Source of the DNA: an uncultured Anaerovibrio sp. | GTDB lineage: Bacteria > Bacillota > Negativicutes > Selenomonadales > Selenomonadaceae | Direction: 5' to 3' | DNA: 64,000 nt | Assembly: GCA_934196075.1 (NCBI GenBank) | Contig: CAKPVW010000004.1 | Location: 1-64,000, forward strand | Shown: in pieces, positions 34,456-51,300 of the stretch | Numbering within the stretch: the first letter of the stretch is position 1 | How the letters are laid out: every line of letters starts with the position of its first letter | Program-made: the position numbers and the translations under genes | Notes under the pieces: model-generated | The model's input: only the letters and a program-made list of their open reading frames with translations | Database searches by the model: none | Told to the model about the DNA's origin: nothing

Positions 34456-34848
34456 TAAGCAGAGACTTACCAGTATGAAGGTGTTCCTGCTGACGGAACG
34501 CATTGCGGAACACCTAAGGATTTTTCGGCAAATGGTGTTCCTTCTCACGGAACGCATCACGGAACGCATTACGGAACGCATCACGGAACACCTACAGCCT
34601 CTCAGCCCTTGTGCCACAAGGCTTCCCCACCACCTAAGAATAAGATAAAAGAAAAAGAAAAAAATCCTTCTGCTAGTATACCTCAGTACGAAGGTATACA
34701 GTCCTCCGAGGCTGACAATCCTGAGAACATACATATGAATCAGCCAAACCAGCAAGAGACAGGTCAAACTAATCCATCTCCTACAGAGGAAGAATTTCAT
34801 TTCTGCTTCGATACCTACAACGTATGTCTCAACAGAAAACCCAATTAA
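34456..34848 (+). pseudogene. Remnant of a replication- or HTH-type protein with a low-complexity repeat
   Basis: After a stop near 34451 a frame stays open to TAA at 34846-34848. It reads a repetitive part with GTHHGTHYGTHHGTP, a basic stretch PPPKNKIKEKEKNP, and an acidic Pro-rich end SPTEEEFHFCFDTYNVCLN. There is no credible start or folded domain. This pattern (Gly-Thr repeats, then a Lys/Glu linker) is seen in the middle of phage or plasmid HTH/DnaD-type replication proteins, so I read it as the leftover C-terminal part of such a gene. Tentative. Confidence 0.4.
34547..34594 (+). repeat. Four tandem 12-bp repeats
   Basis: ACGGAACGCATC, ACGGAACGCATT, ACGGAACGCATC and a degenerate ACGGAACACCTA follow head to tail. 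Related words and GGTGTTCC / GGAACACC inverted copies lie from 34470. Being a multiple of three, it encodes a Gly-Thr-His repeat in the remnant gene. Confidence 0.85.
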
Positions 34849-36022: not shown

Positions 36023-37026
36023 TCACCATTGCCACTCCTGAAATACACCATTTTGGGCATATCCCCACAGATTAACCATCATGTTATCAGTATAATTCTG
36101 AAAATCCTCCGCTACACATCGCAGTGAACTGCCATACGTACGGATGATATCATTACGCTCAATGACGAAGCGTATAACAGGCTTTGTTGTAATACGATTA
36201 TTTTTGCTTGCATTACAAGAAGGACAAGCCAGAACAAAATTCCATAGCTTGTCCTCCCGCACCATTTGCCAAGGAATCACATGATCCACCTGAGACTTAT
36301 CTGTTAATTTTTTACCACAATAAAAACAGCTTGCCACACCAAATTCATTTCTCAAAATATCTCTGTAGAGCGACAGATTATGCCGTTTCGGCGTTGCATC
36401 CTCCAATTTATTTAGCAAGCAATTAGTAACATTTCCTCCATTGTACTTCTCCAAAAGCTTTGCCCAAGCATAATAATTATTATGTTCTATATTTAACTTA
36501 AACTTTTGCAAAAAGCATAAAACGGCATATTAAGCCATATTCTTCCTTCTTTTTTGCTAAAACCATACATCTTTCCAGCAAAATCCGCATATACAGCCCC
36601 TACAACATTTTCCTGACAAACAAACATTACTTGCTTAGCAATTTCCTTGCGCAATGATGCATCTAAAGAACTATATTCTGCAAATTCTGATAATCTATAT
36701 TGATTTACAGCTTCTCGAATAATACGCTCTGTACCCGAATATTTAACTCTGCTAGTTACTTTTGCCTGCTTTAGATTGTACTTTAGAATCAAATTCCAGT
36801 AGTTCTATGTAAATTTGTCGAAAAGCTGCTGAAAGCTCAGTTCCAATCCTCTACTTGTTGGTTCGACTGAAAATAAATTATCCAAGATGGATTTCAAAAA
36901 ACCATATTTATATGTTGTGTTTTTACGACAGCTATCTGAGAAAAAATAACTGAACGCCGTCCATATTTCATCCTCAAAAACAATACTATCTAAAATATCG
37001 CCACTAGGAACATTCCATCCTGCCAT
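36023..37026 (-). pseudogene. HNH endonuclease gene broken by a stop codon and a frameshift
   Basis: Read from ATG 37026 (MAGWNVPSGDILDSIVFEDE), the protein is interrupted by TAG at 36807-36805 in the same frame as the following segment, and then by a one-base shift in a T5 run near 36515. The last part has a complete HNH motif: CFYCGKKLTDKSQVDHVIPW and ACPSCNASKNNR. Joined, the pieces give about 330 aa of one HNH family protein. Two independent lesions make it a pseudogene unless the sequence has errors. It lies behind the defence operon on the same strand. Confidence 0.8.
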
Positions 37027-37104
37027 AATCATCACCGCTCTACTATAAATCATACCAGCATTTGTTTGATATGAATATTATAGCATTAATAGGAGCAAAA
37101 ATCA

Positions 37105-37586
37105 TTATTGCCAACTTAAAAGACACTCATTTATTCTATTCTCGACATCTCCCTTTACAGCAGTAAATCTTCCTGCAAGAATTTCATGTATATATTTCTC
37201 ACTACTCCTATCACCAGCATTTGTATATGTACTAATATGTAATGCTGAGCTTGCCCTATCAGTTAATTCCTTTACATAATCCTCCAATGAATATGATGAA
37301 ATCATATTATTGGCGATATCTGTAAAAAGAACACATCATCTTTTATGATAGATGTATCTACTTTTTTCTTAGCACATCCTATTACCTTTGCCGCATAATC
37401 ATTTGGATTAGCTTGCAATAATAAAATACTGCCTATAGGCATCTTGCAAAGCACTGATGCCACTAATTTTTTTTGCTGCTCTTCATCTCTCCAAACAAAT
37501 TTTCTCTGAAAATCTGGCAACAATATTTCATTCTTATTTATCTGCTCTATCACTGTTGTTAAATTTGATTTAGTTTCATCAGCCAT
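37105..37586 (-). pseudogene. Decayed DUF262 (GmrSD/SspE-like) protein gene
   Basis: The 94-codon first part holds the DUF262 N-terminal motif NEILLPDFQRKFVWRDEEQQ and KKLVASVLCKMPIGSILLL. It reads up to IIKDDVFFL, where family members continue into the LDGQQR motif; here that motif is missing and the frame ends in TGA. A second 66-codon frame starts in an ATGA overlap (ATG 37305) and can be joined by a +1 shift at T5 (TDIANN, then MISSYSLEDYVKEL); it looks like a C-terminal remainder. Most of the protein (normally over 500 aa) has been deleted. Confidence 0.7.
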
Positions 37587-37641: not shown

Positions 37642-38202
37642 CTATTCTCCAGCCAAACTACACAATTCTATGATATCCTCTTTCGTTCTCTTTTTAGGTG
37701 ACAGTTTATCAAATTCATCAATAAATTCTATACAGTTCATAAAATCTTCATCTAATGTGCTCGAATCTTTTATTAATTTTTCATATAAAACCTCTATTCC
37801 TCCTAACATATACGCTTTAAATATATCGTCTCCCGCTTTTCTCTTTACCTGATTTCGATCATATTTAAATGCTCTATCCAACCTATCCTGGGCAGAGATT
37901 TCTTCCTTTTGATCCAATATCATTATAATTCTATACGACCTTGTTAATATATGGCTTATCTGCATCATCTGAGAGGCCAACATACTTATATCCTCACCCG
38001 TATCAGCCATCCCTCTTTTTTTGTAAATAAATCCTACAATAGGTGCTACTGCTATTACATCAACATAACGTTGGAATATAGGTATTCTTGAAGATTTTAT
38101 TTTTGTTCCTGATGAATTGGTTCCTACCAGCGCCCGTACATATCCTGCGTGTCGGCCATATATTTTGTAATCTTTTTGAAAAATTTCCATCGAATCAGTC
38201 AT
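37642..38202 (-). CDS. 186-aa protein of unknown function, last intact gene of the defence operon
   Basis: No motif is recognised with certainty. The protein is alpha-helical and charged, with a central hydrophobic strand (RYVDVIAVAPIVGFIYKKRG) and the C-terminal FDKLSPKKRTKEDIIELCSL. ATG 38202 begins one base after the stop of the upstream ATPase gene, with AAAGGAAAT inside that gene's end; this coupling shows it belongs to the same operon. The partly similar size and position recall accessory Dnd-type proteins (DndE and others), but no homology can be claimed. Confidence 0.7.
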   Translation of the reverse strand: MTDSMEIFQKDYKIYGRHAGYVRALVGTNSSGTKIKSSRIPIFQRYVDVIAVAPIVGFIYKKRGMADTGEDISMLASQMMQISHILTRSYRIIMILDQKEEISAQDRLDRAFKYDRNQVKRKAGDDIFKAYMLGGIEVLYEKLIKDSSTLDEDFMNCIEFIDEFDKLSPKKRTKEDIIELCSLAGE

Positions 38203-38203
38203 A

Positions 38204-40210
38204 TTAACATTTCCTTTCAATATTTGAATATGCCTTACTAATAGGAAGAATTTTATATCTGGCTCCAATTCTATTAGCTAGATGTTTTTCCGCAATATCT
38301 CCATCTGTATCCTTTATAAAAAGAATGAACTGCTCCGCTATATCTGGTAATGATTGACAAATATTTGCTATTCTGGTTTTATCAAATGAGGATAATGGCG
38401 CATCCATTACCAATGGATAGCTTTCCTTAGTATTACACAGAATATTTTCATTTTTACCATCTCCGCGCTTTTTCTTTGCCATCTCAATAATTCCTGCGAT
38501 AAAAGCAAAAATAATAGCATAATTTTGTGCAGTATTTCTATCTACGTCTCCAGATAATAAAGACAAATCCATATTTCTTATTTGAGTTGAAACTCTATAT
38601 TTTTCATCTACTTTTAATAAAATTTCTCCATCATATATTTTAGAAAAAATTTTATTTATAGTTTGTTGCAATTCATTTCTAATTTTGTTTTCCTTTTCCT
38701 CATAGACCTCATTCAAGATCTCGTATACTGCTTCTGCATATGTCAGGTATTTTTTATTTAAGGAAGTTCTTGTATCCTGCTCTAGTAAATCCTCTCGTTT
38801 CTTCTGATTATGTTTAATCTCTCTATTCAATGACTCTAATTGCATAGAGAGTCTACCTCTGTTTTCTTTCGCTTCCTTTAGAACAGCATTCGCTTTATTT
38901 CTTCTCTGTCTTAGCGCATTCGCTTCATTTACATCAGATAATGATTCCTCTATTTCGGAACGACGAACTTCGGCTCTTCTAATCTCTTCCTTAAAGCTTC
39001 TATAATTTTTCAGGCAATTATCTTTTTGTGATGTAAAATCATCGAGGCTATCCATGGCCGTTTTGACACCAGCAGAGAAAATACTTATGGAATTTCCTAT
39101 ACTATGTGGTGGCAACGCTAATTCCAATTCTCTCAAATGTTTAATTCTAGATTCTGAATCAGAGATTTTTTCTCCACATATACATATATTTCTTTTTAGC
39201 AAAAAAGCTACTGTATCTGAGTGTATGCCTGGAACGCCTTTGTCTAAAACATCAAAATCCCTTAATTCTTCCAATACTTCGCCTATTACATTCTGGGAAT
39301 AATATAAGCCTATTTTGTTGCCAAATAACTTAAAGAACCCATTTATATTATCTGTTTTTCTTTGCTCATTTTCCTTTATTTTTTTATTAAGAGCTTCATA
39401 TTCCCTTTTTCTATCGGCATCATCATTCAATAAAGCCAATTTAGTTTCAACTTCACCTAACTCTTTATTACTTATATCTATACTTTCTTCGGCTAATTTC
39501 AATTCTCTATCAACATTTCCTGCCCTTGCTTCCAAATCCTCAATTAAATTAGTCAATTTGCCAAGTTCCTCTACCCCTGACTCATCTATTTCTTTATTAA
39601 ATCTACTAATAACAGTGATAGAACGAGGGCCCGGTTTCTTGCCAAAATGTGTAACTGCCGCCTCTAAAGCTGCTAACCCTACTAATCCTCGCACAGCATC
39701 TCTAAAATTATTACTTTTTTTCTTTTCAAACAGTTCTTTACTCATATCGCTTAAATGTTCCCCGTCAAAAAAGAAAAATTGTGATAACTGTTCTGCCATT
39801 ATCCTATTTACCTTAGACCTTATCACAGTAGCATCTATTTTATCCCATCCGCCTGTAGCATTTCTTATATCTAGAAATACCTGTGGTACATCTGGTTCCC
39901 AGACAAAATTAGTTCTTCTATATGACTGTATTCTTTTTATCTTATATTCTGTGCCATGATGTTCTATATATAGTTCCACTTCTACAGTTGCATACCTTGT
40001 ATTCTCAATTTCCAGATTCAGCAATCCCTTATTCTGGAAATTATTTTGACCATATAAACACCATAAAAAAGCCTGTTCTAATGTTGTTTTACCAGAACCA
40101 TTATCCCCCATAACAATGGTAACATTCTTTTCCTTATCTGTGGAAAAATTAATTTTATGTTCGCCTTTAAACTGTCTAAAATTCTTTAATTTTATATATT
40201 TAATTAGCAT
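38204..40210 (-). CDS. DndD/SMC-like AAA ATPase
   Basis: 668 aa. N-terminal MLIKYIKLKNFRQFKGEHKI and Walker A GDNGSGKTT (35-43) are those of RecF/Rad50/DndD ATPases. Long coiled coils (about 200-300 and 370-500) flank a CICGEKI hook-like cysteine pair. The C-terminal head has LSLLSGDVDRNTAQNYAI (signature region) and YPLVMDAPLSSFDKTRI (Walker B and D-loop). Start ATG 40210 overlaps the preceding 52-aa gene by 11 bp. In phosphorothioation systems DndD-like ATPases act in modification or restriction; here the modification genes are of the Ssp type, so a restriction role is more likely (inference). Confidence 0.85.
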   Translation of the reverse strand: MLIKYIKLKNFRQFKGEHKINFSTDKEKNVTIVMGDNGSGKTTLEQAFLWCLYGQNNFQNKGLLNLEIENTRYATVEVELYIEHHGTEYKIKRIQSYRRTNFVWEPDVPQVFLDIRNATGGWDKIDATVIRSKVNRIMAEQLSQFFFFDGEHLSDMSKELFEKKKSNNFRDAVRGLVGLAALEAAVTHFGKKPGPRSITVISRFNKEIDESGVEELGKLTNLIEDLEARAGNVDRELKLAEESIDISNKELGEVETKLALLNDDADRKREYEALNKKIKENEQRKTDNINGFFKLFGNKIGLYYSQNVIGEVLEELRDFDVLDKGVPGIHSDTVAFLLKRNICICGEKISDSESRIKHLRELELALPPHSIGNSISIFSAGVKTAMDSLDDFTSQKDNCLKNYRSFKEEIRRAEVRRSEIEESLSDVNEANALRQRRNKANAVLKEAKENRGRLSMQLESLNREIKHNQKKREDLLEQDTRTSLNKKYLTYAEAVYEILNEVYEEKENKIRNELQQTINKIFSKIYDGEILLKVDEKYRVSTQIRNMDLSLLSGDVDRNTAQNYAIIFAFIAGIIEMAKKKRGDGKNENILCNTKESYPLVMDAPLSSFDKTRIANICQSLPDIAEQFILFIKDTDGDIAEKHLANRIGARYKILPISKAYSNIERKC

Positions 40211-40358
40211 TAACGTACTCCTTTATAATTTTGACGATTTTATCTACCATATCAACATCTGAGATTATATGATTATTATTTATATTATCCTGTTCTTCCT
40301 TTAATATTTTGTCTATAATTTCATATTTTGCAGACTCACTTACAATCATATCATCCAT
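40200..40358 (-). CDS. 52-aa protein nested between helicase and ATPase genes
   Basis: ATG 40358, with GGAGGATGATG upstream inside the helicase 3' end, runs 52 codons to TAA at 40202-40200. It overlaps the helicase stop by 13 bp and the ATPase start by 11 bp, the arrangement of a translationally coupled gene. The product begins MDDMIVSESAKYEIIDKILK, is acidic and helical, and ends IVKIIKEYVNAN. No family is recognised. Without it the operon would have an unexplained 135-bp gap. It could be a small structural partner of the ATPase or helicase. Confidence 0.7.
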   Translation of the reverse strand: MDDMIVSESAKYEIIDKILKEEQDNINNNHIISDVDMVDKIVKIIKEYVNAN

Positions 40359-42532
40359 AATTCATCATCCTCCATAACAGGCTCAGATTCCAACATTAAT
40401 TCAAAATCATATAAATTATATTTATCAATTATTCGATGTATTTGATATTCATTAGCATAACTATTTTTTGCTAAATCATTAAACTCTACCATACGAAGAA
40501 GCTCCCGTTTTATTAAACCTAATGAATTATCTCTATCCTCTGTTGCCTCAACCTCCTCGCATGGCATAGTCACAAAATCGTATATTTCTGCATAATTTTT
40601 ATTGGGAGACAATCTCAATACTCTCCCCCGCCTCTGAATATATTCCTTAGGGTTTGTAGTGCTTGCCAGAATAAATGCTGTCCTAATCTGAGGAATATCA
40701 ACACCCTCATCAAGACATTTTATGGCAACTAATCCTTGAATCTCCTGATTCTTTAACTGCTCTATCCTGTATTTCCTTTCCTCCATGGATTGTCTTGATG
40801 TAAATTGCTCCGTTCTCATGCCTAAATCCATATTCATCATAGTGCTTATACAGTCTATTTGGCGTCCTAGATTAAAATCTTCACTATCATAAACATCCCA
40901 ATCTTCATAAACATTGGCAGCTCCACAATATATCAATAAATCATGTTCATTGATATATGAATCCTGCAATATATCCCTCAAGCTATCTATTTTATTGTAC
41001 GCCCCTGCTATCAAGCGAGATCTAATTATAAGCAACTGTTTTCCACGTTCATTTACAGCAATCTTTCCATATTTATCTTTATACAAACATTTGACAATTT
41101 CTCTAGTTAGTTTGTTATATTGTTCTTGTTCCTGCATTGTAAGATTAACAACGATAGGATAGTAATAATATGGTGTAAGCTTTTTATCCTTTATGGCATT
41201 TTCTAAGCCATACTCTATACACTTTTCACCAAAAAATTTCTTCAGGGCATTAGTTCCGGAGGTATCATTATGTCTTTCCAAGGTCGCAGATAGTGCTAAT
41301 CTATATTTATAGTCTATATTCAGTGTATTTCTAATTTTCTTTGCGCCTATATTATGTGCCTCATCTACTATCAGAAGAACATCATGACCGTCTAAACGAT
41401 TCATTTCTTTTTGAAATGCTTCACTAACAAAACTACTGTTGGTAGTAATTATCAAAATAAATTTCTCTTCTGATATTGAATACTTAAAATCAAAAAACAT
41501 CTCTCGACAAATCATTTTGTAATTTTTATCAGGTGAATCACTATACCACAATATAGGCTTATAGCTAAACTCTTTAACATCTTTTGCCCACTGTTCCACC
41601 AAATGCTGATATGGGCATACGATAATCACTGCTAGGCGTTTGACATTTTTACATAATTCCGCTACAGCTCCCAATGCCGTTAGAGTTTTACCTGTTCCTG
41701 TTGCCATGTCGAAAATTCCGCAATAGTCATTTGCCTGCCAATTTTTTATGGCTTCTTGCTGATAATCATACAAATTCAGCCATTCAGGCTTCACCAAGCC
41801 AAATGTTGTTTTAAAATGATCTGCCGCCCAGCCTTCTCGCAATGCTTTTGCATCAATATCCCCTATCTGATATTTTTCTATAAATTCCTTTTCTATTTCT
41901 GGAAACTTCATAACGCATATATTTTCATCCAATCCATCCCACATTTTTGTAAAGGCTTGATTTTTTCTTTCCACCCTTTTATCATCTGTGGAAATCCACG
42001 AACAAAATACATCTATGGCCTCATAGTTATCATGTATAGCAGTATCTGTTTCATTCATGGAACCAGAAAATGCTACTATATTGCCTTCTATATCCTCTAT
42101 CAATCCCATTTTTTCATGATACATGCCGATACCTTTCTTTCCTATGGTAACAGCAATTCTTATATCTAAAATTCCTTTGGCAATAAGTGTTGCCAGTAAA
42201 TTAAGACGATTTTGATGACAAAAATCTGTGCAATCTTCCAATTCTCGTTTTAAGGCACCTTTAATGATTTCTTCCCTTTGCTGGTAACCATCATTTATAG
42301 CCTCAATATCTTCCGGTGACAATTTTGGAGAAGCTATTAACTGTATTTTGCCGCCATTTTCATACAATTCATAAATCCCCGCTGAAATAGCAGCTAGTGC
42401 AGAGGAAGAAAAGAATCCCACAGCTCTTTTGTACAAAATTGCCTCTCCTAGCATTGGTATGTAAAAATCGTTAGCCATATCGCAGCTAAGGGTTCTATAT
42501 TCGCTGTCTATCTGAATATCCCGCAAGCTCAT
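40346..42532 (-). CDS. PLD-domain plus DEAD/DEAH-box helicase
   Basis: 728 aa. The N-terminal phospholipase-D-like nuclease domain (about 1-190) shows GFFSSSALAAISAGI and YHEKMGLIEDIEGNIVAFSGSMNET, an HxK...GS half-site. The superfamily 2 helicase follows: Walker A MATGTGKTLTALGA near 265-280, DEAH box LLIVDEAHNIGA, motif III ALSATL and motif VI QRRGRVLR. GAGGG precedes ATG 42532. It starts 23 bp after the cysteine desulfurase gene and opens the part of the operon that follows the modification genes, so it is a candidate restriction effector that unwinds and cuts unmodified DNA (inference). Confidence 0.85.
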   Translation of the reverse strand: MSLRDIQIDSEYRTLSCDMANDFYIPMLGEAILYKRAVGFFSSSALAAISAGIYELYENGGKIQLIASPKLSPEDIEAINDGYQQREEIIKGALKRELEDCTDFCHQNRLNLLATLIAKGILDIRIAVTIGKKGIGMYHEKMGLIEDIEGNIVAFSGSMNETDTAIHDNYEAIDVFCSWISTDDKRVERKNQAFTKMWDGLDENICVMKFPEIEKEFIEKYQIGDIDAKALREGWAADHFKTTFGLVKPEWLNLYDYQQEAIKNWQANDYCGIFDMATGTGKTLTALGAVAELCKNVKRLAVIIVCPYQHLVEQWAKDVKEFSYKPILWYSDSPDKNYKMICREMFFDFKYSISEEKFILIITTNSSFVSEAFQKEMNRLDGHDVLLIVDEAHNIGAKKIRNTLNIDYKYRLALSATLERHNDTSGTNALKKFFGEKCIEYGLENAIKDKKLTPYYYYPIVVNLTMQEQEQYNKLTREIVKCLYKDKYGKIAVNERGKQLLIIRSRLIAGAYNKIDSLRDILQDSYINEHDLLIYCGAANVYEDWDVYDSEDFNLGRQIDCISTMMNMDLGMRTEQFTSRQSMEERKYRIEQLKNQEIQGLVAIKCLDEGVDIPQIRTAFILASTTNPKEYIQRRGRVLRLSPNKNYAEIYDFVTMPCEEVEATEDRDNSLGLIKRELLRMVEFNDLAKNSYANEYQIHRIIDKYNLYDFELMLESEPVMEDDELWMI

Positions 42533-42555
42533 TTTTATCCCTCTTTGTACTCCAC

Positions 42556-43701
42556 TTAGATATTATCCTGTATATCATCCAAGGCCGCTTCTAATTCTGC
42601 AAAATCTCTTTCGCTGGTAAAATATCCTACACTAAAGCGTATAGTACCTGCTGGATAGGTGCCTAAAAATTTATGTGCTAATGGTGCACATTGCAAGCCA
42701 GTCCGAACGGAAATATTGCACTCATTGAATATTGTAGCTGCACTATCACTGCTGATGCCGTCCAATAAACAGGAAACAATACCTGCATATTCTGCTTCTT
42801 CGCTTATACCTATAAGCTTAACAAAATAATATCTTTGCAAGATCTCCAGCAGCCTTTTTCTATTTTCCTGCTCCCTTTGCCATATATTCTCTATTCCTTG
42901 TTTCTTTAACCATTTCAGTGCACCATGGAGACCTGCTAAACCTGATGTGTTCATGGTGCCCATTTCAAACCGCTGTGGTAAATTGTCTGGCATATCCTGA
43001 TTAGCTGAATCATATCCTGTACCACCATATAAAACTGGCTCTAATCTTATATCCGGCCTCATAACAAAACCAGAAATACCAGTAGGGCCATATAAAGTTT
43101 TGTGGCCTGCAAAAACAGCAAAATCAAAAATATCCCCCACTTGTAAATTCACTAATCCGGCAGATTGAGACATATCTGCCACTGTATAGGCATTATATTG
43201 CTTGGCCAATGCAAAAATATCCTTGATAGGCGCAATTAAACCAGTAACATTACTTACATGGCTAATTACCACCAAATCTGGCCTTGTCCTCTCAAAATCC
43301 ATTTTCATTTTTGCAAAATCAAAGATAAAATTTACTCTATCAACAGGCAAAATATGAACCTTTATTTGCCCTTTTTGTTCAAAATAGTGCAAAACTCTGG
43401 TAACTGCATTATGCTCAAAAGGACTTATATAGACATTTTTCAACTCTTGGCACAATAACCCCTGCAAAATCATATTCAAGGCCAATGTTGCCGTAGGTGT
43501 AAATATCACCTGCTTGCCAGGACAGTGAAGTACATCTAATACCATATTTCTTATATTCTGTAAAAGATTGGCCGCTGAAATAGCCCCCTGATATTCTCCT
43601 CTGCCTACACTGCCAGCAATATTTCTATATAGCAAGTCCATCTGCTTGTACACTTCCTCAGGCTTGGGAAATGTTGTAGCTGCATTATCAAAATACGCCA
43701 T
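42556..43701 (-). CDS. sspA: Cysteine desulfurase, SspA/DndA-like
   Basis: Supplies sulfur from cysteine for DNA phosphorothioation. 381 aa, fold-type I PLP enzyme of class V. N-terminal MAYFDNAATTFPKPEEVY; PLP lysine K201 in FAGHKTLYGPTGISG; catalytic cysteine in ISVRTGLQCAPLAHK near the C-terminus (group II style). GGGGG ribosome-binding site. Located 11 bp after the SspC-like gene and directly before the helicase, inside the operon. On sequence alone it could be a general IscS/SufS-type enzyme; the context gives the specific role. Confidence 0.8.
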   Translation of the reverse strand: MAYFDNAATTFPKPEEVYKQMDLLYRNIAGSVGRGEYQGAISAANLLQNIRNMVLDVLHCPGKQVIFTPTATLALNMILQGLLCQELKNVYISPFEHNAVTRVLHYFEQKGQIKVHILPVDRVNFIFDFAKMKMDFERTRPDLVVISHVSNVTGLIAPIKDIFALAKQYNAYTVADMSQSAGLVNLQVGDIFDFAVFAGHKTLYGPTGISGFVMRPDIRLEPVLYGGTGYDSANQDMPDNLPQRFEMGTMNTSGLAGLHGALKWLKKQGIENIWQREQENRKRLLEILQRYYFVKLIGISEEAEYAGIVSCLLDGISSDSAATIFNECNISVRTGLQCAPLAHKFLGTYPAGTIRFSVGYFTSERDFAELEAALDDIQDNI

Positions 43702-43712
43702 ATTTGCGCCCC

Positions 43713-46700
43713 CTAAAGCATAGTCTCCAAAATATCCATAAGCACCTGCCTCTTATCAGCCTTGGACAGGCTCTGACCACTTTCTTCTAATCTGGCCATC
43801 AATGCATTGCGTAATCTTTTTCCGCTAGCAGGATATTCCTTCCTAGCAAATCTTTTTACCACATTCTCACCTTGTACATTGACAAAATTAATTGCATAAT
43901 CAGCAGTCTCGCCAATTTCCTTTACTGGCGCTGTATTATTAGATGTTGTACATTTCTCTATTTCCAACTTACACTGAGAAATTCTCTCTAAAAATACAGG
44001 TATTTCTTCCTCAGACCAATCATTCAGCCGCAAACCTGTAAACAAAAAAGCCAACTTTTGTATCAAGCCTCTTTCATCATCAGATTCATATAGCTTTAGC
44101 AGCTGCAAAAACTCTCCAGTATTATCTGCAAATACCTGCTCCCAAACGCCGCTATCCAGATTTTCCTGCCAATTTTTCAGCAAGGATATCAAGGAAGCTC
44201 TGCTATCTCCTGAGAATATATTCCTTAGCTCTGCATCTAATGTTTTATACAAATCAGCTAAAGCCTCATCCCGCCAATGCTTGTTGTCGAAAATAGCATT
44301 GTACAAATGAGTATAATCATTTGTGCCAAATATCTGAGGAAAATGCTTAAATAAAATATCTCGAGGATTATTTTGATTTCGTAATACATTCATAAATCTT
44401 TTACTAGTACCTCGAGTATCATTACCATTCAAGGAAAGATTAAATTCCCTGCTATATCTAGGCAAGCTGCGATACCAATTTTGCATTGCCAGCATAATGC
44501 TATTTAAACTGCTTGTATTCTCCTCTGCAGCTCCATAATCAATAAATAACTCTTTAAGTCTTGCAATATAGTTTTCTTTTTCTGCATCCCAATGCAAACG
44601 CTCCACAAAAAAACTATCTGGCGTACTGTCTATCTGCTGAAGTACATCTCCATTTAGAGGTAATTCTCCATTACTATCCGAAATCACTAAGCCTTTTCTA
44701 TAAATATGCAGAACTACCGCCAAGTAAATTGGTATAAGACCTCTGCGCATGCCAATATGAAAATCTGGATTTTGTAAAAAATCATAAATCAGTTCAAAAC
44801 TAATCTTTTTATTCTCTATATCATCCCAGAGTATTTTTTTCATTCCCTGCAGAACTTCTGCCAGAGCTGGATTTTTTTCTGTATGCAAATTCAAGGTAGG
44901 ACGTATATTGTCGCCTTGCGCCAATACCCCTGTACGAAGCAATGTACTGCGCATAATAGCTACATCCTGCCCACTGCCTTTTAACCCTAAATTTTCCTCC
45001 AAATCTCGTCTTAACAGGGCAGCCACAACTTTGTTACGATTATTAACAACAATATTCGTAACCTCATTTTTATTTACAGCTTCATTGTTAATAACCGGTG
45101 TTGCAGAGAAAATGTCATCCATAATCGTAGACAAAAATTCCGATAACTGGGATTTGCGAATAAAATTTAATTGCTGCCCTTGATAATAATACTCTACGCT
45201 CCCTCCCTCTGGGCGGGTGTATCCTCTCATGTATTCATTCACTAATCCGTATACATCATCATAGATAATTTCATATTCATTACGAAGAACAATATCATTG
45301 CCAGCTTCTTCCCTAAGACCATTTACCGCAGCTAGTTCTAATACCAAGGCTGTAATATTTTTACTTTTTTTAGGTACAGCAAACAGCACCCTGTTACAAT
45401 CAACATGTGCTAGTATTTCTTCTATTCTACTCATATCCTCTTGATTTTCTGGCAATACTCCAAAAATCACACCATCTGCTGCCTCGCCTTGAATCATAGC
45501 ATGCCAGTCTGTATCTTTTGCTACTTTTGAGGAACTAATAAATACAAATTTAAAATATCTAGTTATTTCCTTTGCGTCATTATACCTGACTGGATAAAGA
45601 AAACTATCAAAATTCATTTCATTGAGAATATCATGCGTATCTTTGGTATGCTCCAAGGCTGCCATTCTATCCTGAATCTGTTTCCATATATCTACACCAG
45701 AGCTTTCCTTCAAACGCAAAAAACCATTATTGCGATGTAGCTTGGCAATATAATTAGCTGACAACAATTCTGCTATAGCTTTTTCAATTTCCTCTTTGCT
45801 ATATGCTAGGTGATAAATATCAAAAAGAGTATTAGACTTTGGTGATAGCTTTTCAAATTCTCCCACCATAGAAATAAGGGCCAAGGTTTTAACTAACTTT
45901 GACTGTAATGAATTAGCCTGCAAATTTTGTAATATATTTGATGTTAAAATATATTGCTGATGTATTTCCCCTTCATACAATTCCTTCTGCATTAAAGGTT
46001 GAAAATAATCATAAATTAAATCAGGCATAAGCAAATTGCCCTCAGCATTGCTAGCTATATAATTTAATAAGCTAGACTCCTCATTAGCTGACAGAAAGGT
46101 AAACAATGTTCTTTCATTTTGAGCAATTTTCTCTGACAGTCGTGGCAATAAAAATAAAGTAACAGGATGCAAGGGGTAACACTCCCTGATAATCTGCTCC
46201 AAATTCTCTATGCCTGCATCTGCAAACAATCTACTTTCAATGTATGTGGAGGACAAGCTTCTGAACATTTTCTCATATTTTTCACAAAACTTTTCCCACA
46301 GTGTCTTATCCTTTTGAATTACCCTGCTTATTATTTCATAGGTTTGACCAAATTCATTTTGTATATGTATATGTTTAAAACGCTCTGATACACCCCGCCA
46401 ACCATCTGTTTTTTCCTTAGGCAGCTTATTAATATAATTTGCAATTTCTTTATGACATATTAACAATATGTGCATTTGGCAACTTCCACTGCGGTTGCAT
46501 TTTTCGGCAAAATCTTGCAGCATTTTGGTATCGCTAACTGTAGCTTCTTCTATATTAGATTCCAGATATTTACTAAATTCATCATATATAACATAAAGCC
46601 CAGAATACCCTTTACTTTTAATAGCTTTAGCTACACCTTCATATAATTCCACAACATCAAAGCCCAAAAATGGATTGAAACTGCTACCGGCTGTTAAAGT

Positions 46701-47303
46701 TGGATAGATTTGTTCAAATTGTTTATAGGCCTTTATATCATAGGTAGTTAAGGCCAACATAAAATCATCCACAGGACAGCCAATCTTCTTAACTAGCAAC
46801 TTATATACTTCAGGATATTCTGTGTGCCATCTTTTAATACATTTCACAGCTGCCTGATAGTTAGTTTCTGGCATAATATCCAGCATATCATTATCATTCA
46901 AGGTTCTTTGCAAAGACAGAATGAATGCCTGTGTGAGACTAGTATTGCTGCCACTAATAATAACAGGCAGCAATTTTTTTCCTTGATGATCAAATACATC
47001 AACCTGCTTACGCAAAATACCTTCTGTATCAGCCTGCCAAAGATGTTGAAACAGATTTCTATCCCTGCGCATTAACAAGGCCATAGTGGACAGCACCATA
47101 TGAGATTTACCTTTGCCATATGCCCCTACCAATACTCTAGCCCTATCTGTTGCCTTTTCATCAGTAGAAGCAATAACCTGACTAATAAACTTCATGGCAC
47201 TGCTATTAGGCATATAATTGATAATTTTCTCGTCGTTGTTCAAATCATAGCCGATATTCACAGAATATTGAAAACCGGATGCTATACTTAACATATTTTT
47301 CAC
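43713..47303 (-). CDS. sspC: Large P-loop ATPase, SspC-like
   Basis: 1196 aa. Walker A GAYGKGKSHM at residues 60-69, after FQYSVNIGYDLNNDEKIINY; a Walker-B-like YSGLYVIYDEFSKYLES follows near 230. The long remainder is helical without a nameable domain. Start is GTG 47303, overlapping the DUF4007 stop (GTGA) with GGGGAG upstream; ATG three codons later is an alternative. Size, P-loop and position between a DUF4007 protein and a cysteine desulfurase fit SspC of single-strand phosphorothioation systems. Also resembles BREX BrxC-type ATPases in general build. Confidence 0.75.
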   Translation of the reverse strand: MKNMLSIASGFQYSVNIGYDLNNDEKIINYMPNSSAMKFISQVIASTDEKATDRARVLVGAYGKGKSHMVLSTMALLMRRDRNLFQHLWQADTEGILRKQVDVFDHQGKKLLPVIISGSNTSLTQAFILSLQRTLNDNDMLDIMPETNYQAAVKCIKRWHTEYPEVYKLLVKKIGCPVDDFMLALTTYDIKAYKQFEQIYPTLTAGSSFNPFLGFDVVELYEGVAKAIKSKGYSGLYVIYDEFSKYLESNIEEATVSDTKMLQDFAEKCNRSGSCQMHILLICHKEIANYINKLPKEKTDGWRGVSERFKHIHIQNEFGQTYEIISRVIQKDKTLWEKFCEKYEKMFRSLSSTYIESRLFADAGIENLEQIIRECYPLHPVTLFLLPRLSEKIAQNERTLFTFLSANEESSLLNYIASNAEGNLLMPDLIYDYFQPLMQKELYEGEIHQQYILTSNILQNLQANSLQSKLVKTLALISMVGEFEKLSPKSNTLFDIYHLAYSKEEIEKAIAELLSANYIAKLHRNNGFLRLKESSGVDIWKQIQDRMAALEHTKDTHDILNEMNFDSFLYPVRYNDAKEITRYFKFVFISSSKVAKDTDWHAMIQGEAADGVIFGVLPENQEDMSRIEEILAHVDCNRVLFAVPKKSKNITALVLELAAVNGLREEAGNDIVLRNEYEIIYDDVYGLVNEYMRGYTRPEGGSVEYYYQGQQLNFIRKSQLSEFLSTIMDDIFSATPVINNEAVNKNEVTNIVVNNRNKVVAALLRRDLEENLGLKGSGQDVAIMRSTLLRTGVLAQGDNIRPTLNLHTEKNPALAEVLQGMKKILWDDIENKKISFELIYDFLQNPDFHIGMRRGLIPIYLAVVLHIYRKGLVISDSNGELPLNGDVLQQIDSTPDSFFVERLHWDAEKENYIARLKELFIDYGAAEENTSSLNSIMLAMQNWYRSLPRYSREFNLSLNGNDTRGTSKRFMNVLRNQNNPRDILFKHFPQIFGTNDYTHLYNAIFDNKHWRDEALADLYKTLDAELRNIFSGDSRASLISLLKNWQENLDSGVWEQVFADNTGEFLQLLKLYESDDERGLIQKLAFLFTGLRLNDWSEEEIPVFLERISQCKLEIEKCTTSNNTAPVKEIGETADYAINFVNVQGENVVKRFARKEYPASGKRLRNALMARLEESGQSLSKADKRQVLMDILETML

Positions 47304-48223
47304 AGTGCCTTCTCCCCATTTGTTTTTAGGCTTTCATAATAGTGCAACAAACACTCTTCCACCGTATATTTTTTTACAATTCTTACTACGTCCAAGCCTG
47401 CTGTTCGCACTATTTTTAACAGGCCTTTTATCTCTGCCAATCGCAATATTTCCAAAATAGTAAGGGTATCCAGATTAAAAACCTTGCCAATACTATTTTT
47501 ACCATGCAGTAATTGGTCTAAATCGATTTCCATTTTATCCTTGTTTTCTGCAAAATATGACTGGCATTGCTCAAATATTATGGCTAGAACAATCCATTCA
47601 TTGAATAATTTTGTAGAAACTATCTGCTTTCGATAAAGTTTCGTCTCTTTGTTGGCAATATCAATCAATCCCAATTCCCCCAAGGGACAATCAATATTAT
47701 TTTCCGGAGAAATTTTGCCTGGATTTAATTTAAATCTTGATACATAAGTATTAATGATACAGTTAAAATCTTCCTGCATAGAACGTTCAGCATGAGATGC
47801 CCCAGAAAATTCCATGACAATATAATTATTAAGAGCTCGAACAAAATCTTCCCTTGTAAATTCCTTCATTTTAAATTCTTGAAATAGGAAATACCATGCT
47901 GTTGCCATCTCGTAATTGCAAGCAAGCTTGTAATGAATCATCAACAGAGTGCCCATTTCCTCTATATAGCGATCATGTTCATTAATAACTCTCCCCAGGC
48001 TAGTTAATCTTTGTCTTCGCACACCTGATTTTGGCTCAACTGCTAGTCCTGTTGCCTGCATCCAATAGCGCAATGACTTCACCATATTAGCACCGATGCC
48101 TAGTACATCCATAGGATTGTTTACTTTGGACACAAAAACATCAGGGCTTTCCACAATATGTTTTAGCCCCTTAGAAAGCCATCCCTTTCTGATAAAAAAT
48201 GTTTCATGTCCTCTTAATTTCAT
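47300..48223 (-). CDS. sspB: DUF4007-family protein, SspB-like
   Basis: 307 aa. The N-terminus MKLRGHETFFIRKGWLSKGL and the phrase NPMDVLGIGANMVKSLRYWM are the hallmarks of DUF4007. In the Ssp system the DUF4007 protein SspB nicks DNA to allow sulfur insertion (established for SspB; applied here by family and context). Starts 18 bp after the SspD-like gene with GAGG-type signal; its stop overlaps the start of the ATPase gene. Confidence 0.82.
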   Translation of the reverse strand: MKLRGHETFFIRKGWLSKGLKHIVESPDVFVSKVNNPMDVLGIGANMVKSLRYWMQATGLAVEPKSGVRRQRLTSLGRVINEHDRYIEEMGTLLMIHYKLACNYEMATAWYFLFQEFKMKEFTREDFVRALNNYIVMEFSGASHAERSMQEDFNCIINTYVSRFKLNPGKISPENNIDCPLGELGLIDIANKETKLYRKQIVSTKLFNEWIVLAIIFEQCQSYFAENKDKMEIDLDQLLHGKNSIGKVFNLDTLTILEILRLAEIKGLLKIVRTAGLDVVRIVKKYTVEECLLHYYESLKTNGEKAL

Positions 48224-48241
48224 CCCTCAACGTCCTCTCAT

Positions 48242-49990
48242 TTATTTTGTTCTCAAATATTTATCCATCATACAGCCACCAGCGAGATATTTCTGATTGA
48301 CACAAACCTTACAGTGTACACATTTATCTGGATTTATATAATATGTATCTCCTAAGATTGATATAGCACCTGAACGACATAGTGATTCACATTTTAGACA
48401 TTTGCGACAAGCATTAAACTTACGCACTTGATAACCTGCCATTCTTTGCAAATCAGCATGCTTTTTTACATTCATGGTTTTTATTTTTACTGCTTCAGTA
48501 TAATTATCCTGTCTAAATGGCTGTATAGACAAAATAGGTACATTAGTGGCTATATCCAACACTAACACCTCATGCAGCAGCTTATTACCTAATTCTGGCG
48601 CCAACTTGCCAAATGGTACAAACAAATTAATAAGCTCCTGACTATAAGGCCTAGTTAATTTATATATTTTGGCATGATTTTCGCTGGTACAGTTGGTAAA
48701 TTGCAATTTTACATCAGATGCCGAAGCCAATCCGTTGCCACCCTGTCTGGCTTTCCATTTACCTGAATCCACATATTCTTCTGCATCAGGCTTACCAATT
48801 TTTCTAGCAAAGTCCAATAAAAATTTTCGCCATATTTCTGCTTTATCCGACATATAAATATTTGTTAAAAACTGTGCTCTGCTATTATTATTTGGACAAC
48901 AATAGCAACCTACTCGGTCATACCCCAAACGGTAGGCATAATTAAAATCTATTTTTTCCGTTAGCATGTACAACCAAACATCAACGTCATTCCAATAAAA
49001 AATAGGCGCAGCTACAGTTTGCTGCTGAATCTTTACAGATTCCGAAGCCTTTTCTACTCGATTATATTTACTCCGGCTAACAGACTCGTGCTTACGAATA
49101 CCATAAAAGATCAATATCTGTTCATTTCGATAATTTTCATATATAACTCGCGTTATGGGCCCTGTTTTAAACATAGAACAGCACCAACGCATCATACGGG
49201 CAGGAGGCCCTATATCCTTGCAAACATCTAAAAATACCTGCTCTTGATTTTTGGCTGTTAAACACTCTGCTAATTGGTGTTGTCTGCGATAGCGTTTGGC
49301 ATATTCTATAGTCATAGGAAATTCCAAAGTTGTATCGCCAAAAATATGAACTAAAGATGGATTCCCCAAAGCTTTGATAACAATATCTGCTACCACGGTG
49401 GAATCCTTCCCCCCTGAAAAAGAGAGAACTATATTTTCCTCATGATATTTAGCTGCCTCTAGCTTTATAAACTCTCTTGCCTCATCGACTATATAATCAA
49501 AACGCTTTTTGTTGTAGCGGATAAAAAGAGATACCTCTTCCTCAAAATGCTCATAGGAAATATCTGCTTGATGAGCTTGTAAGCTTTTTTTAATGGAATC
49601 AGTGTCAGCTAGAGCTAGTTTTTTTAGAGAAACAATATGCTTCTTGCCGTTTATAAAATATTTATTCTCATGTGCCCATACTGCTGAACTCTGCAAAGAA
49701 TGTATCTCTCTGTTATCCAACAACTCTAATAACAATCTCTCCTCTGGAAATACTGGTCGAATATCCGTCGAAAGATATGACAGGACACTGCCACAGGTTG
49801 GACAGCTTACATGCCTATTATTTTCCATACTAGACTTGACCTGACTTTTATCCAAAATTATAGGCACATGACAGTTACTGCACCAGTATACCTCTATGGG
49901 AATATCAATATCTGGAACTGTTTCATTATGACAGCCATCCATTGGACATTTTTTTTGATTTGTCTTTATTTCACATTTTGGGCACCACAT
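48242..49990 (-). CDS. sspD: PAPS-reductase-family ATP pyrophosphatase, SspD/DndC-like, with zinc and Fe-S modules
   Basis: 582 aa, first gene of the operon. N-terminal zinc ribbons: CPKC at 3-6 with CPMDGC, then WCSNC near 36-41 and SCPTC near 63-68. The core has the PP-loop LSFSGGKDSTVVAD near residue 190, and FGDTTLEFPMTIEYAKRY, typical of PAPS reductase/DndC. Near the C-terminus is a ferredoxin-like part, CRKCLKCESLCRSGAI and CVHCKVC. Activates and delivers sulfur to the DNA backbone. ATG 49990 is preceded by GGTGA. N-terminal ribbons and C-terminal ferredoxin distinguish it from assimilatory CysH. Confidence 0.83.
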   Translation of the reverse strand: MWCPKCEIKTNQKKCPMDGCHNETVPDIDIPIEVYWCSNCHVPIILDKSQVKSSMENNRHVSCPTCGSVLSYLSTDIRPVFPEERLLLELLDNREIHSLQSSAVWAHENKYFINGKKHIVSLKKLALADTDSIKKSLQAHQADISYEHFEEEVSLFIRYNKKRFDYIVDEAREFIKLEAAKYHEENIVLSFSGGKDSTVVADIVIKALGNPSLVHIFGDTTLEFPMTIEYAKRYRRQHQLAECLTAKNQEQVFLDVCKDIGPPARMMRWCCSMFKTGPITRVIYENYRNEQILIFYGIRKHESVSRSKYNRVEKASESVKIQQQTVAAPIFYWNDVDVWLYMLTEKIDFNYAYRLGYDRVGCYCCPNNNSRAQFLTNIYMSDKAEIWRKFLLDFARKIGKPDAEEYVDSGKWKARQGGNGLASASDVKLQFTNCTSENHAKIYKLTRPYSQELINLFVPFGKLAPELGNKLLHEVLVLDIATNVPILSIQPFRQDNYTEAVKIKTMNVKKHADLQRMAGYQVRKFNACRKCLKCESLCRSGAISILGDTYYINPDKCVHCKVCVNQKYLAGGCMMDKYLRTK

Positions 49991-50055
49991 AAAATCACCA
50001 TATTAAATAAAATTCACACCTGATGCACGATACCCAAAAATTATGCAACAAAAAA

Positions 50056-50127
50056 GTCAAGTTATCATTGTGGATAACTTGACCAAGTTTCGTTGTGGAT
50101 AACTTGACCAAGTTTCGTTGTGGATTT
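50056..50127 (-). repeat. 25-bp direct repeats with DnaA-box-like words and palindromes upstream of the ssp operon
   Basis: The 25-bp unit beginning TGTGGATAACTTGACCAAGT occurs at 50069-50093 and 50094-50118, and its first nine bases in altered form (TGTGGATTT) at 50119. Each unit holds TTATCCACA on the minus strand, a perfect DnaA-box word, and the palindrome AACTTG-N2-CAAGTT. A further dyad GTCAAGTTATC / GATAACTTGAC spans 50056-50083. It lies 66-137 bp upstream of the SspD-like start, in the expected promoter region, so repressor binding is plausible. Confidence 0.8.
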
Positions 50128-50159
50128 CGTCTAAAGCAAATACGCTTTAGACGAAATCC
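50122..50159. repeat. Perfect 16-bp inverted repeat next to the direct repeats
   Basis: GGATTTCGTCTAAAGC (50122-50137) and GCTTTAGACGAAATCC (50144-50159), loop AAATAC. Contiguous with the third partial repeat. On the minus strand no T-run follows, so not a terminator for the galE side. A minus-strand TATAAT lies just beyond it (about 50163-50168). Confidence 0.85.
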
Positions 50160-50220
50160 TAACATTATAATATCATAATAGATTTTATTTTTAAATAGCA
50201 TAAAGCTTTTATTTACCACA

Positions 50221-50264
50221 AAAATCCCCTAAAGCAGTCTTTTCTGACTTGCTTTAGGGGATTT
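50221..50264 (-). terminator. Terminator downstream of galE
   Basis: On the minus strand AAATCCCCTAAAGCA pairs with TGCTTTAGGGGATTT, followed by TTTGTGG; 41 bp after the galE stop. It separates the lac-gal operon from the defence operon. Confidence 0.88.
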
Positions 50265-50304
50265 GCGTTTTAGGGTGTGATATCTTTGAGTTTTTTAGCT
50301 GGAC

Positions 50305-51300
50305 TTAGTTTTTGTCCTCATAGCCGTTTGGATGGTTCTGATGCCATTTCCAAGCGGTGCCGATAACATCGTGTACATCGGTGAAGCGTGGCTTCCAGCC
50401 CAGTACCTTTCTGGCTTTTTCGCTGGAGGCAATGAGCTGGGCAGGATCCCCGGCTCTGCGGGCACCCATTTCTACCTTGATTTCCTCGCCGGTAGCTTCC
50501 TTGGCTGCCTGAATCATTTCCTTAACTGAGAAGCCCTGGCCATTGCCCAGATTGAAGATATTGCTATCCCCGCCCTGGCGGAGATAGTCTACAGCCAGTA
50601 CATGGGCATCTGCCAAATCCAGTACATGGATATAGTCTCTCAGACAGGTTCCATCTGGAGTTGGATAGTCATCGCCGAAGATGGTAATATGATCCCGCTT
50701 GCCCAGTGGCACCTGCAAAATCAAAGGAATCAAATGAGTCTCAGGATTGTGATCCTCACCGATGGAGCCATCCTCCATGGCACCGGCCGCATTGAAATAA
50801 CGCAAAGAGACATAGCGGATGCCATTGGCCTGGCTTACCCACTTCATCATCTTTTCCATAATCAGCTTGGACTGACCATATGGGTTGGTAGGCTCGGTAC
50901 GGTCATCCTCCATAATAGGAATCCGCTCAGGCTCGCCATAGGTAGCAGCCGTAGAGGAAAAGACAATCTTGTCCACACCGTTTCTTACCATAGCCTCCAG
51001 CAGTACCTGCATACCATAAACATTGTTGTTAAAATACTTCAATGGCTGAGTAACGGATTCACCCACCAAGGAATTGGCTGCAAAATGCACCACGCTGTCA
51101 ATCTTGTTCTCAGTAAAAATCTTGTCCAGAATGGCTGCATCACGAATATCTCCCTCATAGAACTTTGCCTTTGGGTGTACAGCCTTTATATGACCAGTCT
51201 GGAGATTATCAACAATCACAACCTCCTCACCCTTATTAATCAAAGTATAAACTGTATGAGAGCCAATGTACCCAGCTCCACCACAAACCAAAACTGCCAT
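50305..51300 (-). CDS. galE: UDP-glucose 4-epimerase
   Basis: Interconverts UDP-galactose and UDP-glucose in the Leloir pathway. 331 aa SDR enzyme: VLVCGGAGYIGSHTVYTLI (NAD motif), SSTAATYGEPERIP, and catalytic YGQSK. C-terminal GLGNGQGFSVKEMI-like segment is present. Ribosome-binding site GGAGG. Last gene of the lacZ-galK-galT-galE series, separated from galT by 250 bp containing a large hairpin element. Confidence 0.96.
   Translation of the reverse strand: MAVLVCGGAGYIGSHTVYTLINKGEEVVIVDNLQTGHIKAVHPKAKFYEGDIRDAAILDKIFTENKIDSVVHFAANSLVGESVTQPLKYFNNNVYGMQVLLEAMVRNGVDKIVFSSTAATYGEPERIPIMEDDRTEPTNPYGQSKLIMEKMMKWVSQANGIRYVSLRYFNAAGAMEDGSIGEDHNPETHLIPLILQVPLGKRDHITIFGDDYPTPDGTCLRDYIHVLDLADAHVLAVDYLRQGGDSNIFNLGNGQGFSVKEMIQAAKEATGEEIKVEMGARRAGDPAQLIASSEKARKVLGWKPRFTDVHDVIGTAWKWHQNHPNGYEDKN

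Follow-up and report, generated by a model that had tools for sequence, protein, structure and literature searches.

Which effector acts with the phosphorothioation (PT) genes of an uncultured Anaerovibrio sp., and do the two belong to one defence system? The DNA concerned is positions 1 to 64,000 of contig CAKPVW010000004.1 (assembly GCA_934196075.1), this whole 64-kb stretch being called the window, and the genes are a run of eight on its minus strand, from 49990 to 37642. The first four are predicted to encode an Ssp-type PT writer and the second four the effector PbeABCD. Both modules are known, and their pairing is undescribed in the literature that we found. Since many relatives keep the Ssp and Pbe genes together, the Ssp-Pbe operon probably represents a genuine defence system that recurs. 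It is likely to be a PT defence operon in which the Ssp writer supplies the tag for PbeABCD, with a presumed antiviral role. An earlier look at the letters alone (the sequence-only reading) had proposed eight consecutive genes, with gaps or overlaps of under 25 bp, that join a PT module to an effector module in one operon, and both the spacing and the profile matches agree with it. The genes are as follows.

48242..49990, minus strand: sspD (brxP-like), 582 aa, with N-terminal zinc-ribbon motifs, a PP-loop PAPS-reductase domain and a C-terminal 4Fe-4S ferredoxin domain
47300..48223, minus strand: sspB, 307 aa, a DUF4007 protein, predicted DNA-binding or nicking component
43713..47303, minus strand: sspC, 1196 aa, an AAA+ ATPase with a GTG start
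42556..43701, minus strand: sspA, 381 aa, a cysteine desulfurase with pyridoxal phosphate lysine and catalytic cysteine
40346..42532, minus strand: pbeA, 728 aa, an HKD/phospholipase D (PLD) nuclease fused to a superfamily 2 (SF2) helicase
40200..40358, minus strand: pbeB, 52 aa, a predicted helical hairpin, overlapping pbeA and pbeC
38204..40210, minus strand: pbeC, 668 aa, a DndD-like coiled-coil ABC ATPase with a CxC hook
37642..38202, minus strand: pbeD, 186 aa, a predicted DndE-fold protein

All eight open reading frames (ORFs) were confirmed at these positions in an ORF check of the window. The distances from sspD through to pbeD are 18, -4, 11, 23, -13, -11 and 1 bp, a range of -13 to +23 bp, and most starts are preceded on inspection by a purine-rich stretch resembling a ribosome-binding site. 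Pfam families recognised in the operon are PAPS-reductase and Fer4, DUF4007, cysteine desulfurase, ResIII/Helicase_C and AAA_23, and SspC is also recognised. Relatives were obtained by a single search of a genome contig collection with PbeA alone, which gave 34 loci; four (L003, L004, L008, L021) have too little upstream sequence and were set aside, leaving 30 evaluable for the writer genes.

The names that the sequence-only reading gave to SspD, SspB, SspC and SspA hold. SspD belongs to the PAPS-reductase/ATP-pyrophosphatase family (Pfam PAPS_reduct 106 bits, Fer4 26 bits), though it lies nearer to BrxP than to the SspD model of PADLOC (BrxP 275 bits, DndC 47, SspD 43). Its SGGKDS motif and the seven cysteines of its ferredoxin tail are kept in all 31 aligned rows, the window included; CxxC ribbon motifs are present at the N-terminus, and the two cysteines of the first ribbon are kept in 29 and 28 of the 31 rows. 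Extra ribbons and a ferredoxin tail had been singled out earlier as features of this SspD. Both are there, but the tail is not peculiar to the locus: it is a known variant, as the available part of PMC12839542 describes such a tail in some SspD proteins as well as in bacteriophage exclusion (BREX) type 4, while making no mention of zinc ribbons in SspD. SspB matches Pfam DUF4007 at 269 bits and the solved SspB structures 6juf and 6lb9 at E 7e-19. SspC scores best against the SspC model of PADLOC (429 bits, versus 149 for BrxC), with the Walker A GK(S) and Walker B DE residues kept in 38 of 38 aligned rows. SspA exceeds the cut-off of TIGR01977 with 415 bits, scores 134 bits against PADLOC SspA and 124 against DndA, and keeps its catalytic cysteine in all 34 aligned rows. 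The fourth place of sspA, remarked on earlier as a departure from first place, is confirmed, but D-B-C-A is the usual order in the relatives (27 of 30). These four genes thus correspond to a predicted Ssp PT writer in the order D-B-C-A with a BrxP-like SspD, and its marks are expected on one strand because the writer is Ssp rather than Dnd.

The second half had been read as an effector containing a PLD nuclease-SF2 helicase fusion and a DndD-like ATPase; these are PbeA and PbeC, and PADLOC together with a DndE fold identifies the set as predicted PbeABCD, previously named merely as a profile to search. PbeA matches its PADLOC profile at 785 bits and TIGR04095 at 505 bits (below the cut-off of 600), and carries PLD, ResIII and Helicase_C domains (Pfam ResIII 94 bits, Helicase_C 55, and PLDc_2 25.7, slightly under the cut-off of 27). 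In its HKD site H139 and K141 are kept in 38 of 38 rows and D147 in 37, and the Walker A and DEAH motifs are intact. PbeC (339 bits) is a CxC-hook ABC ATPase with intact Walker A and B motifs and the CxC, at 343-345, in all 36 aligned rows. PbeD begins, as a 186-aa protein, at the ATG at 38202 within a longer 208-aa ORF that begins at TTG; it is taken to be a DndE-fold protein mainly from its fold, DndE being matched in the VIA second look of the structure comparison. PbeB had no profile match in the PADLOC, Pfam and TIGR searches. A small frame lies between pbeA and pbeC in 31 of the 34 relatives (two others have no pbeC within reach and one showed none), and 30 of these 31 align with the 52-aa PbeB, with E22, N25 and M37 invariant; its structure model (predicted local distance difference test score 87) has two helices. 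The aligned frames at the equivalent place show that the 52-aa frame is a real gene.

The pairing recurs in several bacterial phyla, judging by the record titles. The genes D-B-C-A precede pbeA on the same strand in 27 of the 30 evaluable loci, which were picked by likeness to the window PbeA so that the figure is not a rate for all Pbe; two of the 27 (L001 and L028) have extra genes between sspC and sspA. SspB and SspC are also present in two more, L016 (SspB-SspC-SspD) and L011 (SspB-SspC downstream of Pbe). The other, L009, has no Ssp and carries a full-length BREX-type-4 BrxP (747 bits) 4.5 kb away; here, in Desulfosporosinus sp. I2 (L009:19366-21705), a Pbe set of the Ssp-linked branch stands beside BrxP in a genome without a DUF4007 match. 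Other arrangements are convergent genes in L054 and L076, B-C-D-A in L064, Ssp downstream of Pbe in L087 as in L011, and B-C-D in L016. L054 is a Rhizobium plasmid typed as conjugative, in which Pbe faces a canonical SspABCD, and the Ssp-Pbe set also occurs on two phage-labelled human faecal scaffolds (L055 and L056, with pbeB outside the comparison). Where the PbeA profile scored no more than 180 bits next to Ssp genes (L063, L072, L074, L077, L080, L082-L085), the match was regarded as a different helicase and left out of the Pbe count. One contig binned as archaeal (L025, a Methanobrevibacter metagenome-assembled genome from goat ileum) also carries an Ssp-Pbe operon accompanied by a sigma70-like gene; either the operon was transferred into an archaeon or the binning is wrong.

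Genome surveys gave the same association. Among 391 Clostridia genomes, PbeA is found in six (E 1e-60) and DUF4007 in six (E 1e-10), adjacent in three including the survey centre G001. Both genes of the centre were known beforehand and it was therefore excluded from the test, which leaves two shared genomes out of five with PbeA and five with DUF4007 among 390 (hypergeometric p 0.0013). DUF4007 (E 1e-20) was also found in Bacteroidia (15 of 395 genomes) and Alphaproteobacteria (7 of 376). Over all the DUF4007 surveys, three centres excluded, Pbe adjoins it in at least 4 of 25 genomes (G069, G297, G404, G1315). Stretches of up to 20 kb were read for 24 of the 25, and the count is a minimum because several contigs end early and just a part of the domain is present in G306.

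The Ssp-Pbe genomes appear to do without a Dnd writer. DndC over the curated cut-off was found in none of 15 genomes checked, out of about 36 with Ssp-Pbe and in assemblies that may be incomplete, and in both Dnd-Pbe controls. Weak DndC matches in 9 of the 15 are, by position, the operon's own SspD in eight and BrxP in one (G004), the latter being also the one of 10 Ssp-Pbe genomes with a full-length BrxP besides the operon. In a PbeA tree of 60 rows from a short (quick) search, one branch (Shimodaira-Hasegawa-like approximate likelihood ratio 99) holds 41 rows, consisting of 36 Ssp-linked rows, L009 and four unclassable ones. The Ssp-linked L054 and L081 fall outside it on long branches, but a single clade for all 38 Ssp rows was not rejected (approximately unbiased test, p 0.268), and independent origins of the pairing are thus unsupported on this tree. 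Writer and effector also diverge together: 31 of the 38 operons labelled Ssp have all six genes at sufficient length, and in these the pairwise distances correlate for SspC-PbeA (rho 0.74, with 0 of 500 shuffles as high), SspB-PbeD (0.60) and PbeC-PbeD (0.94), values that include shared ancestry, uncorrected. A correlation of 0.107 published for DndCD and PbeAC (PMC6459918, in the part available) comes from another method and sample and is not directly comparable with 0.74.

The effector half resembles that of DndCDEA-PbeABCD from Haloterrigena jeotgali A29, as described in the accessible text of PMC6459918 and, as the CxC ABC-ATPase/DndE-anchored system, of PMC10853773. The gene order pbeA-pbeB-pbeC-pbeD is the same and the PLD-SF2 helicase, tiny PbeB, CxC ABC ATPase and DndE-fold PbeD are common to both, the published PbeB and PbeD also being small (66 and 152 aa). 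The writer differs, being Ssp (DUF4007 SspB, SspC) in the window and not Dnd (DndD, DndE). With SspABCD-SspE and SspABCD-SspFGH, from what PMC8092258 offers in the section available, the operon shares SspA, SspB, SspC and a PAPS-reductase family SspD, but it has PbeABCD as effector, a BrxP-like SspD with ribbons and ferredoxin tail, and the order D-B-C-A.

No description of an Ssp-Pbe operon was found in a literature search that lay outside supplementary tables, preprints and subscription papers, any of which could list it. PMC7464106, in the portion at hand, gives numbers for strains that combine pbeA-D with dnd or ssp genes and does not separate the latter two, so that Ssp-Pbe strains may be contained in its figures. 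The same kind of partial text gives 2,211 of 2,678 sspBCD modules without sspE or sspFGH (PMC8092258) and 320 of 553 pbeAC without dnd (PMC6459918), and the recurrent pairing partly fills both gaps. It also raises the question of whether a single effector reads both the Ssp marks, on one strand, and the Dnd marks, on two. A wider proposal, which we put forward as possible but tentative, is that PbeABCD is a writer-independent reader-effector of PT DNA which has been joined to Dnd, to Ssp (in various gene orders) and possibly also to BREX type 4; that Ssp-Pbe forms a class of its own and accounts for a substantial share of the orphan sspBCD and dnd-less pbe loci; and that most of the relatives found add a dedicated RpoD-like sigma protein tying PT sensing to transcription.

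By analogy with published Ssp and Dnd work, SspA would draw sulfur from cysteine, SspD would carry it and activate the DNA, SspB would nick or select the site and SspC would supply the power, leaving single-strand PT marks on host DNA. These marks may serve Pbe as Dnd marks do. PbeC and PbeD, the CxC-hook ABC ATPase and its DndE-fold partner, would scan DNA and sense PT; PbeA would unwind invading DNA and probably cut it through its HKD site, and PbeB may be a small helical adaptor. The present analysis supports this scheme with the identity of the genes, their intact catalytic motifs, the conserved operon and the failure to find a Dnd writer in the genomes of 15 relatives, and the copy in the window is, judging from its sequence, presumably active. 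In the archaeal DndCDEA-PbeABCD system, according to the available text of PMC6459918, pbeB, pbeC and pbeD are indispensable and pbeA is needed in part; the system depends on the PT mark, virus carrying that mark escapes, and viral DNA replication stops.

Several points weigh against a writer-dependent antiviral operon of this kind. The accessible part of PMC6459918 reports that viral DNA cleavage by PbeABCD was not seen, despite the intact HKD site here; PMC10853773, as far as its available text goes, argues for cleavage from the HKD domain, and conservation of that site in the present operon favours cleavage, short of proof. For PbeD, the Foldseek search itself returned nothing under E 0.001 and a search of PDB profiles with the PbeD alignment gave no DndE. 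The host is known from 64 kb alone, and a Dnd writer may therefore lie elsewhere in its genome. Relatives were chosen by PbeA likeness and the distance correlations contain common descent, as stated above. The Bacilli survey gave PbeA in 18 of 398 genomes. With two centres excluded, Clostridia and Bacilli together have 22 PbeA genomes, of which five are Ssp-linked, six are Dnd-linked and 11 have neither in the stretch read, so that half have no PT writer nearby; two candidates were scored in nearly every genome of these surveys and matches may be missed. Finally, the nuclease gene downstream of pbeD is broken, and tblastn of the window with the relatives' sigma-like proteins gave no match under E 0.3. 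The copy in the window may thus be reduced, with the sigma-like gene of most relatives missing and the neighbouring nuclease gene broken.

A different mechanism for the same genes, in which Pbe attacks DNA without Ssp marks as in classical restriction, PT shields the host as with SspFGH and loss of the writer is toxic, is unlikely but deserves serious attention. It fits the intact nuclease and helicase motifs of PbeA, the damage that SspFGH does to a cell without the writer and that sspBCD calms (PMC8092258, in part), and the evasion of PbeABCD by PT-marked virus. It predicts toxicity where the available text of PMC6459918 reports none: archaeal strains deleted for writer genes showed no toxicity and were no longer protected, and protection was likewise lost in a catalytic DndA mutant.

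That the window holds a decaying or reduced copy, which has lost its sigma-like partner and downstream nuclease and with them its defence, is improbable. The broken GmrSD/HNH gene behind pbeD and the lack of a sigma-like gene in the 64 kb, versus 25 of 34 relatives with one, speak for it. The eight frames are nevertheless intact with their catalytic residues kept, and six Ssp-Pbe relatives with sequence behind pbeD (L018, L023, L028, L034, L055, L056) also have no sigma-like gene in the stretch available.

It is more improbable still that two independent systems merely share a defence island and promoter, with Pbe acting alone or with another modification. The 11 of 22 PbeA genomes without a PT writer in the stretch read would fit this, as would the methyltransferase genes within about 10 kb of Pbe on two haloarchaeal plasmids and one from Leuconostoc. 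However, the genes overlap or nearly touch, their order is conserved across phyla, their divergence is correlated, and DndC is missing over cut-off from the 15 Ssp-Pbe genomes checked.

BREX type 4 as a name for the operon can very nearly be dismissed. In the available part of PMC12839542 that system (BrxP-BrxC-PglZ-BrxL) likewise has a BrxP-like PAPS reductase with ferredoxin tail, DUF4007, a BrxC/SspC-type ATPase and a cysteine desulfurase, and SspD scores far higher as BrxP than as SspD. The BrxP match covers profile positions 23-513 of 779 only, however, DUF4007 is a separate gene, SspC outscores BrxC, no PglZ or BrxL match was found in the eight proteins or the scanned neighbours, and PbeABCD follows. 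The SspFGH effector or a variant of it, suggested in the sequence-only reading and prompted by the adjoining Ssp writer, is contradicted by the PADLOC identity of PbeA and PbeC, by four genes against the three of SspFGH (a cassette with a Walker-A protein and the FtsK/SpoIIIE-like SspH in the text available of PMC8092258), by the PLD-helicase and DndD-like ATPase and by the lack of an FtsK-type match in Pfam at E 0.01, and is scarcely credible.

In the Ssp-Pbe relatives, the writer-effector operon is often joined by another gene. A sigma70-like gene, mostly of 360-410 codons, is present in 25 of the 34 loci, usually directly after pbeD and before sspD in L022; in L004 it ends at the contig end, and three of the nine loci without it (L017, L027, L032) have no usable sequence after pbeD. 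An example is L019:14902-16029, with regions 1.1, 2 and 4. Of the 23 proteins aligned (L004 and the near-copy L031 omitted), all match Pfam sigma region 2, 22 match region 4 and 19 match region 1.1; all 23 also match the C-terminal part of MzaA in PADLOC. This is the likeness to MZA (PADLOC models MzaA and MzaB); for the window no Mza was among the matches listed for its eight proteins, and its sigma-like gene is absent. A literature search for MzaA returned unrelated papers only. A sigma70-like partner would add a novel type of component to PT systems. Four further scanned loci encode, upstream of pbeA, a large protein (1029-1337 aa) with sigma region 4, and RNA polymerase alpha C-terminal domain is matched by that of L058 (79 bits) and only below cut-off by that of L050 (20 bits).

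L050:8759-11845: large sigma-region-4 protein, Dnd-linked
L058:4936-8946: large sigma-region-4 protein, Dnd-linked
L089:5727-9026: large sigma-region-4 protein, no PT writer nearby
L098:4770-8750: large sigma-region-4 protein, no PT writer nearby

Other accessory genes vary. DndB-family proteins accompany Ssp-Pbe in L012 (16131-17920; Pfam DndB 105 bits), L013, L020, L028, L029, L030 and L031, where other dnd genes were not seen in the stretch; some of these loci add a 180-200 aa protein of unknown kind. The same SspDBCA writer type on plasmid pTS1 of Treponema saccharophilum (L066:9392-21312) is followed by another possible effector, made up of an SF2 helicase, a GHKL ATPase resembling MzaB and, as a protein of its own, a PLD protein resembling DrmC/ZacB. 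In L061:14955-19901 the three frames behind SspDBCA (607, 515 and at least 530 codons) have no Pfam match and perhaps represent a further Ssp effector.

The operon block has a G+C of 0.33-0.38, versus 0.44-0.49 in the surrounding DNA, and a third-codon-position G+C of 0.24-0.33 in its eight genes, versus 0.50-0.53 in galE, galT, galK, lacZ and thiC nearby, which points to horizontal acquisition. The genes galE-galT-galK-lacZ lie upstream of the operon, and no tRNA genes were found in the window. The operon is flanked as follows.

36023..37586, minus strand: broken GmrSD_N (DUF262)/HNH nuclease gene or gene pair, five ORF pieces directly after pbeD
49991..50304, minus strand: operon leader, containing a perfect inverted repeat of 16 bp, a pair of 25-bp direct repeats and then a terminator-like hairpin before sspD

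In the broken nuclease gene, GmrSD_N scores 44 bits at 37302-37586 and HNH 41 bits at 36023-36511, and the pieces match proteins of L001, L064 and L066. A GmrSD_N relative is encoded in a single open frame of L001, where it lies between sspC and sspA, and L066 has an HNH relative next to sspD. In 49000-51000 Rfam gave three matches with E values of up to 1, none of which reached the gathering score. A terminator-like hairpin was found in just one of 31 leaders of sspD-like genes elsewhere, and a conserved attenuator was rejected. Each 25-bp direct repeat of the leader contains TTATCCACA, which we take to be DnaA-box-like. At the edge of the low-G+C block, short tandem repeats of the type CACGGAACGCAT occur at 34480-34589 inside a 125-aa minus-strand ORF.

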